Assembly (NCBI GenBank): GCA_943788515.1
Contig: CALSQM010000011.1
Coordinates: forward strand, 23,005-87,004
Direction: 5' to 3'
Length of the DNA: 64,000 nucleotides
Source of the DNA: an uncultured SAR86 cluster bacterium
GTDB lineage: Bacteria; Pseudomonadota; Gammaproteobacteria; Magnimaribacterales; D2472
Part shown: in pieces, positions 19,832-59,025 of the stretch
How positions within the stretch are numbered: the first letter of the stretch is position 1
Layout of the letters: the number at the start of each line of letters is the position of its first letter
Made by a program: the position numbers and the translations under genes
Notes under the pieces: model-generated
Databases searched by the model: none
What the model saw: the letters and a program-made list of their open reading frames with translations, nothing else
Told to the model about the DNA's origin: nothing

Positions 19832-21160
19832 TTAACTGAGTAAATTATTAATTTTTACTATGTCAGCTGGTGTAATTGTTCCCGATGCAAGCCCAAGTCT
19901 TAGGTTGGCAAGAATATAATCATATTTTGCATTAGCGAGATTTTTTTCCGCACTGTATAAGTTTTTTTCTGCTTGCAAGAGATCAACAACGTTTCTTGTT
20001 CCAACTCTGTAGCCAACTTGAGTCGCTTCTAGGGCACTAGTGGCCGAAATCACTGCTTGTTTTTGAGCATTTACATTTGCAACTAATGTTAAAACATTTG
20101 AAAACTGGGATCTAACTTCTTGAATAATCCTTCTTTCAGTAAATAGTGTATTTTCATTTGCTCTTTCATACTGAGAATATGCTTGCTTTCTTCTTGAGTT
20201 AACGGCTCCACCTTGAAAGAGTGGCATACTTAGCTGAATTGCATAATTCCTTCTTCCTGTTACTGATGGAACTGGAATGCCTTGGCCATTAATATTAAAA
20301 CCTTCATAGTTAAATTGGTTTGTTTCAGACTCTGACTGACTTCCAACAATGTCTATCTTAGGTAAATGATTTGAAGCCACACTTCTTGCACTGCTTTTCG
20401 CTGCTTTCTTTCTTAAATATGCTGCTTTCAACTGGTAGTTATTTTCCAATGCTAATTCAACCCATTTCTCTTTTGAACTTGGTGTTGGTAGGTCAATAAG
20501 CAAACCATCTCCCAATTCATTTAAGCTGAATATTTCTCTACCAATCAGAGCATTTAAAGATTCTCTTGCAGAATAAAGGGATCCTTCTGTTCTAATTCTT
20601 GCGGCCTTACTTAGATCAAATGCCAATTGAGCCTCTTGAACTCCAGTAATGGCTGATAATCCAACTTCGAATCTTTGTTTTGCTTGATCAAGTTGTTTTT
20701 TAATAGCTTTTTCTTCAGATATTGCTGCATTTAGATTATCAATAGCTCTAAGTACGCCAAAATAAAGCTCAGCAGTTCTAACTAAAAGATTTTGCTGCTC
20801 AAATGCAAAGTCTGCTTCTGCGGCATCTGTAAGAGATTTAGATTGCCTATATTGAAACCATGTATCTAGTCTAAAGAGCGGCTGAGTAACCCTGGCAGAT
20901 GTAGAAAAAGAGTTATATTGCTGCTGCAGCTCTTTGTTTTGATAGTATTCGTTCCAGTTAGTTGATCCACTCAAGGTAATACTCGGGAGAAGCGCAGCTC
21001 TTCCTTGAACTTTAAGCTCTTTATCTGCTAAATACGAATATTCCGCTGCTTTATATGTAGGGTCATTCTCAAGCGCCTCATTATAGATATCCAAAAGACT
21101 TTCAGATGAAATATTAAATGAGATAAAAAGTGCTAAAAATGATTTTGTGTAAATTTTCAT
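19832..21160 (-). CDS. tolC: TolC family outer membrane channel
   Basis: TolC-like repeats, GYRVGTRNVVDLLQAEKNLYSAEKNLANAKYDYILANLRL. Confidence 0.92.
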   Translation of the reverse strand: MKIYTKSFLALFISFNISSESLLDIYNEALENDPTYKAAEYSYLADKELKVQGRAALLPSITLSGSTNWNEYYQNKELQQQYNSFSTSARVTQPLFRLDTWFQYRQSKSLTDAAEADFAFEQQNLLVRTAELYFGVLRAIDNLNAAISEEKAIKKQLDQAKQRFEVGLSAITGVQEAQLAFDLSKAARIRTEGSLYSARESLNALIGREIFSLNELGDGLLIDLPTPSSKEKWVELALENNYQLKAAYLRKKAAKSSARSVASNHLPKIDIVGSQSESETNQFNYEGFNINGQGIPVPSVTGRRNYAIQLSMPLFQGGAVNSRRKQAYSQYERANENTLFTERRIIQEVRSQFSNVLTLVANVNAQKQAVISATSALEATQVGYRVGTRNVVDLLQAEKNLYSAEKNLANAKYDYILANLRLGLASGTITPADIVKINNLLS

Positions 21161-21182
21161 AACTTATTTTAACCTATTAATA

Positions 21183-21201
21183 ATGTTTGCAGTGCAAACA
21201 T
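21183..21201. promoter_or_regulatory. perfect palindrome upstream of tolC, candidate TetR operator
   Basis: ATGTTTGCA-G-TGCAAACAT; 16-17 of 19 positions match the two tetR/RND intergenic sites (reverse complement). Confidence 0.7.
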
Positions 21202-21299
21202 TTAATTTTTTTTAATTTTATTGAATTTATTTTATATTTCTTAGAGTAGAATATCTCTAACAAGTTCAATAATTTTTTATAATAAAAAGGCTTTAAAAA

Positions 21300-53336: not shown

Positions 53337-53801
53337 ATGAGCTTACAAGATACTTTTAGACAAGCAATGAGAAGCTATATTTACTCAGTAAGCGTTATGT
53401 CAAATATTGATTCCTATGGAAAGCATAGTGCCATTACAGTTTCATCAGTTACCTCTGTTTCTCTAGACCCGCCAAGTTTATTGGTATGTATAAATAAATC
53501 AGCAGGTATCCATGAAACTATTCAAGAAGGGTCTAGTTTTTGCATCAACCTTTTAACAAAAAACCAAGAAGATATTTCAAACTTATGTAGTTCATTTCAA
53601 ACAGAAGGAAAAAGATTTAATGATCAGGACTGGGATTTAAAAAATATTCCATTTTTAAAAAGCGCTCAAGCTAATATTTTCTGTACTGTTGATAAATTAA
53701 TTCCATATCATACACATACTATTGTTATTGGACATGTAACAGATTCTTTTAGCAATCAAGAAATTAATACACTGACTTACGTAGATGGCTCTTATCAATA
53801 A
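53337..53801 (+). CDS. flavin reductase family protein
   Basis: [17 protein letters not shown]...[31 protein letters not shown]. Confidence 0.9.
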
Positions 53802-54270
53802 AAACTTTAGAAAAGTATTTCTAGTCTTGATATTTTTTAGTACCTCTGTGTCTGCCTCTAACGGATCTTCAAATTTGAATGACTGCCCGGAAAAACCAAG
53901 TGTTTTCATAATTTCTCCACAAAATGGCTTCATTTCAGACTCTAATAATGTGAAGGTTGTTTTTGGTTCAAAGAATGTAGAGATTAATCCAGCTGGTAAA
54001 GGAGAAATTGCAACTAATAAATGCTTTGCAAGCGGACATCATCATTTATTAGTTAATATCGAAAGCCCTCCAGAAAGCTTTATCCCTTTTGATAAAGGTT
54101 ATTATCATTTTGGAGGAGGTCAAACCGAAACAGTTCTTGATTTAGAGCCTGGAACCTATTCTCTTCAACTCATTCTTGGTTCATATGTGCATAATTCAAA
54201 AATGCAGGTAAATGATTTTGCAGGACAAGGACCCTTTTTGTCTAAAAAAATAATTATTAAAGTTAATTAG
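53785..54270 (+). CDS. DUF4399-like predicted periplasmic protein
   Basis: Signal-like N-terminus; [21 protein letters not shown]...GHHHLLVN...[15 protein letters not shown]...[13 protein letters not shown]. Confidence 0.8.
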
Positions 54271-54877
54271 AGATTAGACCACTTATAACTTTATCTAGAT
54301 GCTCTTCTAGGTTATCAGCAATCTTACTCGCAGTTGAAATCGGGCCAGAACCTTCATCGAAATCATCACCTGCCACATTTACTTTTCTTATGATTCCTAC
54401 AAGGCCGTGCAACATTGACCATAGAGTTATACATTTAAAGGCAACCTCTTCCTCAGAATCATTTGCTAAATTCGAAAAATTATCTTTCATATTATCGTAT
54501 GTCTGGTTCGCAGAAAGAAGAAGATCAGGGAAGTCGGCAAAGTTACCAACAGACGTCCCAAACATCAAATCATATGTATTTGCATTGTTTAAACCAAATT
54601 CTATATATTTACTTGAACTAGCAATAATTGTTTTCTTTGTAACCTTCTCACTTCTATTAAAAAAAACAAGCTCATTGAGTTTTTTAAAACCCACTGTTGC
54701 AACGGCTGCATATACACATTCTTTTGTTTTAAAATGTCTGTAAGGAGCAGTTTGAGAAACACCACTTTCCTTCGCAAGTGATCTAATGCTTAATTTAGTA
54801 TAACCGTCTCTATCACAAAGCTTACAAGCACATGCGATGAGCTCTTCTTTTAGGTTTCCGTGGTGATAGGTATTCAT
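54263..54877 (-). CDS. TetR/AcrR family transcriptional regulator
   Basis: [35 protein letters not shown]. Confidence 0.93.
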
Positions 54878-54889
54878 TATTTAAATTTA

Positions 54890-54908
54890 ATGTTGACACT
54901 GCTAACAT
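54890..54908. promoter_or_regulatory. candidate TetR operator 1
   Basis: ATGTTGACACTGCTAACAT, imperfect palindrome between divergent tetR and RND genes; overlaps TTGACA. Confidence 0.7.
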
Positions 54909-54921
54909 GTACTATGTTATT

Positions 54922-54940
54922 ATGTTTACACTGCTAACAT
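54922..54940. promoter_or_regulatory. candidate TetR operator 2
   Basis: ATGTTTACACTGCTAACAT, near-identical to operator 1; 32 bp centre to centre. Confidence 0.7.
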
Positions 54941-54977
54941 TAAGTTTATTAAGAATAAAAGTCAAATAAATATATAC

Positions 54978-55961
54978 ATGAACATAACAAAAACAAATAA
55001 AACTAGAATAGCTTTTTTGCTATGCAATATATTTTTAATAAATCTTGAAGCTTTAGAAGTTCTTGAGATTAAAATTCTTGACGAATATTCTGTAACTCGA
55101 GAATTTCCAGGAAAACTTATACCGACAGAGCAGTCTAAGTTGGCATTTGAAATACCTGGAAAAATAAATACCATTAATGTTGATATTGGAGATGAAGTTC
55201 TCTTTGGTAATGAGCTTGCTACATTGGATGATAGAGAGGCTCTAGCTCAACTCAATCAATCCAAAGCTAAATTTGATTTAGCTGAACAATTACTGGCTAG
55301 ATATATAGATTTAAGAAAGGATGGGCACATATCTATTCAAGATCTTGATAAAGCCAAGTCTGATCAAATAGTAGCTAAGTCACAATATGATTTCTATAAG
55401 GTTAAATTGGATCAAACTAAGCTATTAGCTCCTTTTAACGGAGTGATTCAGAATAGATTTCTAGATACTGGATCAGTAATCAACTCAGGCGCTCCTGTTT
55501 TAGAAATTTTGGGCTCTAGTAATGTTGAAGCCAGAATTTCAATCCCAACAAATTATATGAACAAAATTAAGATTGGAGATGAGTATGAATTTGATATCAA
55601 TGGGATATTTGCAAAGGCTAAATTAGCTAGGCTTGCTCCTATGTCAACTGGAGGCTCTAATAATAGATTGGCAATTTTTAGATTCGATACTTTCTTTAAT
55701 CCAGGATCAATAGTAAAGCTCAAGCTCAGTATTTCTCAAAAAGCAAAAGGTACATGGGTTCCAATTAAATCATTGTCTCAATCGGAGCAGGGTATTTGGG
55801 CTATTTATACTATTAATGAACAACAAGTGGTAGTTAGAGACTTGGTTGATGTTATTTATTTTGAAGATGAATATGCTTTTGTTAGTGGCACAATTAAAGA
55901 TGGCGATTTAGTAATTTTAGGTGGAGCTCAAAAGATTATTGAAGGCAAGATAATAAAATAA
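54978..55961 (+). CDS. RND efflux periplasmic adaptor (HlyD/MFP family)
   Basis: FEIPGKINTINVDIGDEVLFGNELATLDDREALAQLNQSKA...LLAPFNGVIQNRFLDTGSVI. Confidence 0.93.
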   Translation: MNITKTNKTRIAFLLCNIFLINLEALEVLEIKILDEYSVTREFPGKLIPTEQSKLAFEIPGKINTINVDIGDEVLFGNELATLDDREALAQLNQSKAKFDLAEQLLARYIDLRKDGHISIQDLDKAKSDQIVAKSQYDFYKVKLDQTKLLAPFNGVIQNRFLDTGSVINSGAPVLEILGSSNVEARISIPTNYMNKIKIGDEYEFDINGIFAKAKLARLAPMSTGGSNNRLAIFRFDTFFNPGSIVKLKLSISQKAKGTWVPIKSLSQSEQGIWAIYTINEQQVVVRDLVDVIYFEDEYAFVSGTIKDGDLVILGGAQKIIEGKIIK

Positions 55962-55962
55962 A

Positions 55963-58900
55963 ATGAGTGTTATTAATTTTTTAATAGAAAAACCTAGAAT
56001 ATTATTTCTTACTCTAGCATTTATATTACTTTCTGGGATTTCTTCTGGGCTATCGGTTCCAATTCAAGAAAATCCTGAACTGGCGGAAAGATGGGGAGGA
56101 GTTCGTATATTTCTTCCTGGTGCATCTCCTGAAAGAATAGAAACAGAAATAGTTAATGCTCTAGAAATTAAACTTAGAGAAGTTGAAGAAATACTTGAAC
56201 TTGAATCAATAATTACTCAAGGCTTTTCAACGATTGTAGTTGAATTAAATCAAAGTGTTTCACCTATGCTTATTGAAGAGACTTGGTCTAAAGTGCAAGA
56301 CAAGCTGAATCAAATACTCATTCCGCAAGGAGCAGAAATATTTCTTGATAGAAGCAGTGGACCGCCTATTACCGTTCAGTATGCTGTTACTTGGAACGGC
56401 GATGGAGAAGTTCCACTTATAATGATGTCTAGGCTGGCAAACCAGCTTAAGAGGAAGTTAAGCTCGATAGGTTCTTCTCATCAAACTGCAATTTTTGGTG
56501 AAGCAGATGAAGAAGTTCTGATTGAACTAGACTCATCAAAGTTATCTTCACTTGACTTGTCATTCCAAGATATCTCAATAGCCATTCAATCCTTAGATGC
56601 TAAAAAACCCATTGGAGTATCCTCAAATAATAATTCTGAACTTTTATATAGACTTAAAGACAACATACAGAGTGTTCAAAAGATCTCAGAAATTCCTATT
56701 AAAGTTATTAATGAATCAGAGATTATCCAATTAGACGATGTGGCATCTATTACAAAAGCCCCAGTTTCTCCCGTTGAAGATATATTTTTGTTCAATGGAA
56801 AGGTAGTTGTTTCTGTTGCTGGAACTGGATCGTTTTCTCAAAGAGTTCATGATTATGTTGACCGAGCAACAATCGTTGTTGATGATATGAGAGAAACTCT
56901 TCCTAGTGAGATCTCTATAGATTTGGTTTACGACGAGTCTGCATACACAACTAAAAAATTCAACGAACTTGTCAAAAGCTTTTCATTGGCAATATTTCTT
57001 GTTTTAAGTTTAAGCCTTTTCTTTCTTGGAATAAGATCAGCAATAATTGTCACTCTCATCCTTCCGTTTTCTATTTGTTTGGTTATGGTAGGTTGTAGGC
57101 TTATAGGCTTACCTCTTCATATGACATCTATCACTGGGATTATTATTGCTCTCGGCTTGCTTATAGATAATGGAATTATTGTTGTTGAAGATTACAAAAA
57201 CAGAAGAGCATCTGGATTAAGTATCAACGACTCAATTTCTCAAGGGTTAAAAAACTTATCTGCACCTCTGGCGGCTGCAACAGCCACAACTGTATTTTCT
57301 TTTCTTCCCATAGTTACTGGAGAAGGGTCAAGTATAGAATTCGTAGGTGGCATGGCAATGACAGTGATTATGTCAATTACCTCTTCTTTGGTTTTAGCAC
57401 TATTAATGGTTCCAGTTCTGATGAGCTATATGGAGAAGATTCCTTACTTTCATAACCGAGACATAAGTCAGGAGGGATATAGAAATGAAAAAATCCTTAA
57501 GACATATAGGGCTTTTTTAAACTGGGCATTCTTGGTTCCCAGACGAGCAATTATGATATCGCTTGCTTTGCCTGTTTTAGGATTTCTGCTTTTCAATTCC
57601 CTGCCTAAAGATTTTTTTCCGGCTCAAGATAGAGATATGTTTAGAGTTAATATAGAACTTCCTTCTAATGCATCTTCACAAAAAACAATGGAGAGAGTAA
57701 AAGAAATAAGGGAAGACATTTTTAAGAGTGGGCTAATTTCAATAGAAAAAGATTATTCATTTATAGGCAGAATGATGCCAAGAGTTTTGATGAATGTTGT
57801 AGGCGGTGAAGAAAAACAAGGATCCAATAATATTGCACAGTCTGTATTTTTTGCAACAGATTATTATGAGATGATTGAAAACCTTCCGGAGCTATCAAGA
57901 AGACTTGTTAAAAATAATCCAGATATCATAGTTCTGGTTGATAGCTTCTCTTCTGGGCCACCAGTTTTTTCAGATGTCAGTTATGTAATCTTTGGAGATG
58001 ATCCAGACTTGCTTAAGTCTCTCGGTGAAGAGCTCGAACTAATCATTAATAATTCACCTGATGTGAATCTTACAAAGTCTGCAACTTCAGACTCAACTAC
58101 CAATGTAGAGTTTGAACTTAATAGCTCAAATATTTCACTGTCTGGTAAAAATGCAAATGATCTTATCAATGAAATGTTTACAGCAAATAATGGAATAATC
58201 GTTGGTACCATGCTCGATTCGAACAAAGAAATTCCAGTTCGCTTGAAGGGCCTATCCAATAAAAATAATCTCACCGGGAATACTGGTTTTATAACAATAC
58301 CCTCTCAAGATGGTTTTGAGTATTTTGATAGTTTTGGTAAGAGCTCATTAACAAATAAATCATCGACAATCACCAGGCTTGATGGTCAAAGAACAAATGA
58401 TGTAGAGGGTTGGATTTGGACGGGCACACTTCCATCAGCCACCGAAGAAGCTATTAAAAAAGATGTTCAAGATTTTGAATCAAGACTGCCAATAGGGTAT
58501 TCATTAAAACAACTTGGCGAAGCAGAAAGCAGAGGCCAATCTCAAGCCTCATTATTTTCTTCAGCATTTATGTATTTCATTCTTATAATAGTTGGCTTGG
58601 TAATGGCGCTCAATTCCTTTAGAGAAGCTGGCCTAATTCTCTCTGTTGCATTTTTATCAATTGGATTATCTTTTCTTGGTTTATTTGTAGGCCAGCAAAA
58701 CTATGGATTTATTGGAACTATAAGTGCTGTAGGGCTAATAGGCTTATCAATAAATGATTCAATTATTGTTTTATCGCATATCAAAGAAGAGGCTGACAAG
58801 AAATCAATAACTAAAGCTGAACTTATTGAGGTTGTTATAAGGTCTACACGACATATCATTACCACTTCTTTAACAACACTTGGTGGATTTTTTCCACTTA

Positions 58901-59025
58901 TCTTTGCAAGTGTGTTCTTTAAACCGCTTGCTTGGGCAATGAGTATTGGAGTTTTAGGAGCAACTATTACAGCCTTATTATATATTCCTGCAATGTTTAT
59001 GATTATGAGAAAGGTTAAGTACTAG
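55963..59025 (+). CDS. RND efflux permease (AcrB/AcrF family)
   Basis: 1020 aa; GIIIALGLLIDNGIIVVEDYKNRRASGLS, ATATTVFSFLPIVTGEG, FFPLIFASVFFKPLAWAMSIGVLGATITALLYIP. Confidence 0.96.
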   Translation: MSVINFLIEKPRILFLTLAFILLSGISSGLSVPIQENPELAERWGGVRIFLPGASPERIETEIVNALEIKLREVEEILELESIITQGFSTIVVELNQSVSPMLIEETWSKVQDKLNQILIPQGAEIFLDRSSGPPITVQYAVTWNGDGEVPLIMMSRLANQLKRKLSSIGSSHQTAIFGEADEEVLIELDSSKLSSLDLSFQDISIAIQSLDAKKPIGVSSNNNSELLYRLKDNIQSVQKISEIPIKVINESEIIQLDDVASITKAPVSPVEDIFLFNGKVVVSVAGTGSFSQRVHDYVDRATIVVDDMRETLPSEISIDLVYDESAYTTKKFNELVKSFSLAIFLVLSLSLFFLGIRSAIIVTLILPFSICLVMVGCRLIGLPLHMTSITGIIIALGLLIDNGIIVVEDYKNRRASGLSINDSISQGLKNLSAPLAAATATTVFSFLPIVTGEGSSIEFVGGMAMTVIMSITSSLVLALLMVPVLMSYMEKIPYFHNRDISQEGYRNEKILKTYRAFLNWAFLVPRRAIMISLALPVLGFLLFNSLPKDFFPAQDRDMFRVNIELPSNASSQKTMERVKEIREDIFKSGLISIEKDYSFIGRMMPRVLMNVVGGEEKQGSNNIAQSVFFATDYYEMIENLPELSRRLVKNNPDIIVLVDSFSSGPPVFSDVSYVIFGDDPDLLKSLGEELELIINNSPDVNLTKSATSDSTTNVEFELNSSNISLSGKNANDLINEMFTANNGIIVGTMLDSNKEIPVRLKGLSNKNNLTGNTGFITIPSQDGFEYFDSFGKSSLTNKSSTITRLDGQRTNDVEGWIWTGTLPSATEEAIKKDVQDFESRLPIGYSLKQLGEAESRGQSQASLFSSAFMYFILIIVGLVMALNSFREAGLILSVAFLSIGLSFLGLFVGQQNYGFIGTISAVGLIGLSINDSIIVLSHIKEEADKKSITKAELIEVVIRSTRHIITTSLTTLGGFFPLIFASVFFKPLAWAMSIGVLGATITALLYIPAMFMIMRKVKY

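Follow-up and report, generated by a model that had tools for sequence, protein, structure and literature searches.

SAR86 bacteria are abundant in surface ocean waters and difficult to culture, and no description of a regulon of efflux genes in these organisms was found in the literature searched. Local TetR repressors of RND pumps, such as AcrR, MtrR, TtgR and SmeT, usually guard a single drug-export pump. In the stretch of SAR86 DNA analyzed here (64 kb, hereafter the window), a palindrome upstream of tolC resembles two sites located between a tetR gene and the adaptor gene of an RND pump. This raises the question of whether one TetR protein could control both the pump and a separately encoded outer-membrane channel, and how far such control might extend.

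Palindromes and neighboring genes in the window

The tolC gene (19832..21160, minus strand) was assigned by profile search to a TolC-family outer-membrane efflux channel of 442 aa (Pfam OEP, 1.9e-61; NCBIfam type_I_sec_TolC, 315 bits, over the cut-off). The putative TetR operator in its promoter region, ATGTTTGCAGTGCAAACAT on the plus strand (21183-21201), is a perfect palindrome, with two perfect 9-bp arms separated by one central base. The tolC ATG begins at 21160, and the gap to the palindrome is 22 bp, instead of the 23 bp given in a sequence-only reading of the window. Two further putative operators are located between tetR (54263..54877, minus strand) and the gene of an RND periplasmic adaptor (54978..55961, plus strand; 327 aa; NCBIfam RND_mfp, 164 bits, over the cut-off), the putative target. 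Operator 1, the tetR-proximal site, is ATGTTGACACTGCTAACAT on the plus strand (54890..54908) and includes TTGACA at 54893-54898; operator 2, the adaptor-proximal site, is ATGTTTACACTGCTAACAT on the plus strand (54922..54940). The two are spaced by 32 bp, the tetR ATG lies 12 bp from operator 1, and the adaptor ATG lies 37 bp from operator 2. Their reverse complements are identical to the tolC site at 16/19 and 17/19 positions, and both these identities and the sequences of all three sites were as first reported. The adaptor gene shares an operon with the gene of a 1020-aa RND inner-membrane transporter (55963..59025, plus strand; Pfam ACR_tran, 1.1e-103). Thus, tetR adjoins the adaptor-RND genes with palindromic sites between them, which is the layout of a local RND-pump TetR repressor and is shared with AcrR, MtrR, TtgR and SmeT. 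On its other side, a gene for a DUF4399 secreted protein (window 53785-54270) is convergent with tetR, their 3' ends sharing 8 bp.

The tetR product, a TetR-family regulator of 204 aa and presumably a repressor, matched the Pfam TetR_N and TetR_C_33 domains (PF00440, 33.4 bits, cut-off 24; TetR_C_33, 27.5 bits, cut-off 26.8). Its AlphaFold model (mean pLDDT 91.9) has the all-helical TetR fold, and the best PDB matches were 3on2 (TM 0.71/0.74) and 1zk8 (TM 0.73/0.84). None of the NCBIfam TetR equivalogs (FabR, MtrR, AcrR and others) matched over its cut-off, the best being FabR (32.3 bits versus 151), and the weak match to MtrR (3vib; E=4e-4) covered residues 9-59, that is, the DNA-binding region only.

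A scan of the window on both strands, allowing up to three mismatches, gave six matches in three places, compared with a mean of 0.76 in shuffled sequences. When a relaxed palindrome with up to two mismatches was used, exactly the tolC place and the two tetR/adaptor places were recovered and nothing else. The tolC gene is a separate transcription unit, which the sequence-only reading had called unlinked to tetR; the distance between the two genes is held at ~30-37 kb across genera, so they are not truly unlinked.

Rarity, target genes and conservation of the sites

Pattern searches, together with fetched stretches, covered the whole genome (79% complete; 18 contigs, 1.12 Mb). Without mismatches, the degenerate pattern occurred only at the three window places, and the near matches included a one-mismatch site at C1:64734 and a weaker pair at C10:46069 and 46099, all upstream of genes. 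The relaxed palindrome ATGTNNRCASTGYNNACAT had just five forward matches in the 1.12 Mb. A match at C9:3438 was located inside a secA-like reading frame and was treated as background, as were the matches with two or three mismatches in coding regions; the three-mismatch matches that were checked were considered background because they were either inside reading frames or weak by matrix score. A genome-wide scan had been proposed as the way to expose a motif of background frequency; it revealed rare sites instead, all assigned ones of which precede the same few operons. Across the family, about 263 sites of ATGTNNRCASTGYNNACAT were found in 91 of 108 genomes, and TetR was present in 97 of the 108. 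Only 4 of 96 genomes in other families of the order contained the pattern (family versus rest, Fisher p about 1e-34), and a reversed control pattern gave no match in any of the 204 genomes of the order, including the 108 of the family.

To define the target genes, 155 strict sites were placed against gene positions across the family. Almost all of them (153) were located from -5 to 160 bp upstream of four genes, namely tetR (53 sites), tolC (40), the gene of a ferritin-like diiron protein (31) and that of a PAN-domain protein (29). The other two, plus one at G104:C8, precede a second adaptor-RND operon. Thus, the sites expected for a pump-plus-channel regulon stood, and the proposed scope was too narrow, as the diiron gene, the PAN gene and, for some relatives, another RND operon have to be added. 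Given that the genome is incomplete, the regulon may be larger still.

In this genome, the site at C1:64734 directly precedes the gene of a 368-aa ferritin-like diiron protein, a distant relative of AurF, R2-like oxidases and aldehyde-deformylating oxygenases. Its first 238 aa scored 28.0 against the AurF profile, under the cut-off of 29.6, and the scores for R2-like oxidase (36 versus 194) and aldehyde oxygenase (24.4 versus 222.65) were also below the cut-offs; the structure model (pLDDT 67) is too uncertain for fixing the enzyme class. Many family genomes have a paralog of the diiron protein with about 60% identity, and the diiron gene has a partial tandem duplicate in G050 (C1:1156616-1158607) and is split in G045 (C1:63808-64898). 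The C10 pair (46069, 46099) precedes a gene whose product is a small secreted protein with a PAN domain. In G050 and in genus g5, this gene and a rhodanese-like gene point away from each other, with an operator between them (L114, L116, L118-L121 and L209); regulation might therefore extend to the rhodanese gene. The second adaptor-RND operon was compared at G091:C37:1221, G092:C39:3918, G104:C8, L314 (G102) and L323 (G103). Some species of genus g1 have an operator there and others do not, including the organism studied here, in which the operon is present with no site upstream; this difference is the gain or loss of a putative regulon member.

Conservation was measured with a scoring matrix built from the tetR sites alone in related loci, with a threshold that about 0.2% of shuffled sequences pass. 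This matrix found a site at 30/30 tolC loci, 21/30 diiron loci and 23/30 PAN loci, a sample that leans to close relatives because loci were taken as best protein matches. Site pairs lay between the divergently oriented tetR and adaptor genes in 29 of 30 tetR loci, the remaining one being N-masked, and the tetR-proximal site ended with GTCAACAT in all 30. Overall, the operators form islands of conservation (1.6-1.8 bits versus 0.3-0.9 in flanks), and the tolC operator columns reached 1.82 bits versus 0.5-0.9 in flanks after similar flanks had been removed. Weaker tolC sites could be identified in further genera (G001, G022, G030, G032, G046, G050, G054 and G106), and the site was also weak in g8 (15.8 bits). 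No tolC site was found in G079, in any g3 genome read or in four of the five g7 genomes read (G049, G051, G052 and G053). Both g3 and g7 nevertheless retain tetR operators. Thus, control of tolC is not universal, and the conservation check suggested in the sequence-only reading showed the tolC and tetR/adaptor sites kept together across most of the SAR86 family. Co-evolution of the operator in g3, where tetR is about 32-37% identical, was considered and rejected: sites of the strict pattern are absent there, yet degenerate tetR operators are present and only the tolC site is gone, so no sign of a shared operator in altered form was seen. What looked like in-frame stops in tetR of g3 was just the terminal stop within the alignment.

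Regulator and promoters

If the palindromes are operators, the protein that binds them should travel with them. In the sister family, G125 and G126 each have one strict site between orthologous tetR and adaptor genes and, 28 bp from it, another site that is slightly degenerate, and G113 has a variant site upstream of its tetR ortholog. Among 27 genomes of other families, 3 had both TetR and the motif, 1 had TetR only, 1 had the motif only and 22 had neither (Fisher p=0.005). The genome encodes two further TetR_N proteins (C1:80289 and C4:67620), which leaves room for a different regulator, either another TetR or an unrelated factor, that co-regulates all the operons with the TetR at 54263 merely as one target. 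We consider this unlikely: no site is located near either of the other two genes, the motif stays with this tetR and its pump in the sister family and co-occurs with TetR across families, and the presence of sites, typically as a pair, in the divergent tetR-adaptor interval of all tetR loci read is the usual arrangement for autoregulation. Most likely, one TetR would repress tolC and two or more additional operons as well as the pump encoded beside it. The earlier suggestion that a single TetR serves both pump and tolC thus gained support from sites that are rare, precede the same operons, are conserved together and follow TetR into the sister family.

A tetR promoter was predicted by reading the sequence at 54937..54965 (minus strand), with TTGACT (54965-54960) and TAATGT (54942-54937) separated by 17 bp, and its -10 overlaps operator 2. 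TTGACT or TTGACA is kept in most of the distinct tetR upstream regions compared. A generic promoter scan did not list this promoter, and generic sigma-70 scans gave no more promoter matches than shuffled sequences. Operator 2 adjoins the predicted -10 elements of the two divergent promoters or overlaps with them, and the adaptor promoter is likely to use the TTGACA within operator 1 as its -35; this would account for the unchanged GTCAACAT there in 30/30 loci. Upstream of tolC, G030 and G034 have TTGACA-17-TCTAAT running into the operator (TCTAATG), and in g9 loci a -10-like hexamer (TATAATG) overlaps or directly precedes it. Such overlap of operators with -10 or -35 elements fits steric repression released by a ligand.

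In this genome, no strong -35 was evident upstream of tolC in the promoter scan, so the exact tolC promoter is uncertain. Besides a -10 next to the operator, as in relatives, a second possibility is a -10-like TAAAAT located 5 bp before the ATG (GTTAAAAT AAGTT ATG, window 21158-21172), which would give a leaderless transcript. The same TAAAAT lies 5-8 nt ahead of several start codons, including that at L315 upstream of the second adaptor, and this spacing suggests that leaderless transcripts may occur in SAR86. It should be noted that the sign of control is not readable from sequence and that the promoter scan gave no strong canonical tolC promoter. TetR could then bind at tolC and activate or modulate it, or have little regulatory effect. 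This is quite improbable, even slightly more so than control by a different regulator, given the position of the operator in relatives, over or just behind a -10-like hexamer: a protein bound there would obstruct RNA polymerase.

The palindrome could also act as RNA, since positions 21182-21202 plus the TAATTTTTTT tail score as terminator-like on the plus strand. A hairpin or intrinsic terminator whose match to the tetR sites is accidental would serve only plus-strand transcription out of tolC antisense. Moreover, the bases are conserved as sequence, beyond pairing, and the same sequence occurs at several other promoters. We rejected the terminator reading because the T-run is missing in most of the relatives compared while the sequence is kept, and its probability is negligible.

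Proposed control and known systems

From the observed sites, and from their rarity, positions, conservation and co-distribution with TetR, we infer binding, repression and a type of ligand. The palindrome is very probably the operator of the TetR encoded at 54263-54877, which would control the pump, tetR, tolC, diiron and PAN genes by ligand-released repression. Without inducer, a TetR dimer would occupy both tetR/adaptor operators and keep the pump operon and tetR silent; it would also bind the single operator in the tolC promoter and lower tolC transcription, as well as the matching operators before the diiron gene (C1) and the PAN gene (C10). A small toxic or hydrophobic ligand would free TetR, and the pump, the channel and the two accessory products would rise together. 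The diiron partner, rather speculatively, points to a hydrophobic or aldehyde-like ligand, and the two accessory genes may reveal the exported substrate of the pump. A more far-reaching reading, less likely than not, is that this TetR serves as a master switch for detoxification in the streamlined SAR86 genomes, with one or two RND pumps, a shared TolC, an oxygenase-like diiron enzyme and a secreted PAN protein as targets that vary among lineages, and with a signal that may be fatty-aldehyde-like or otherwise hydrophobic. Target turnover of this kind would include the second pump under an operator in some genus-g1 species and the absence of the tolC operator in g3 and most of g7. Derived purely from sequence, with about 263 conserved sites across 108 genomes, the regulon offers a concrete circuit for testing, and would be a clean case of a local pump repressor whose reach came to include the shared TolC channel in the majority of lineages but not in the rest.

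In Escherichia coli, MarA, SoxS and Rob control tolC and likewise coordinate AcrAB with a separately encoded TolC; however, they are AraC-family activators acting on mar boxes, whereas a TetR-family repressor and a palindromic operator are proposed here. The local pump repressors such as MtrR differ from the SAR86 TetR in operator sequence and in its extra targets. In Salmonella, EnvR (AcrS), a TetR protein encoded beside acrEF, represses the distant acrAB operon, and binding to the acrAB promoter was shown by EMSA (PMC9780535). EnvR thus also sits beside one RND pump and reaches a distant efflux operon, but its distant target is another pump (PMC9780535), whereas the predicted one in SAR86 is the outer-membrane channel. 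The TetR-family AtrR of Vibrio cholerae (VCA0767) represses vexRAB and tolC, and its loss raises both (PMC10805010). It therefore resembles the SAR86 regulator in acting on an RND pump operon plus a separately encoded tolC, but it is not described as a pump-adjacent local repressor and acts through or with VexR (PMC10805010). The text of that study contains no operator or binding assay (PMC10805010), whereas in SAR86 each promoter carries the shared palindrome and non-pump genes are putative targets too. On the basis of AtrR and EnvR, this kind of control is already known. Relative to the papers searched, the novelty would lie in an operator shared directly with the channel gene, in the addition of diiron and PAN genes to the targets and in conservation across the family, and the predicted target set appears wider and better conserved than expected for the known type of control. 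The AtrR-like trait, a putative operator of the regulator at the tolC promoter, was present in all 30 of the closest tolC loci.
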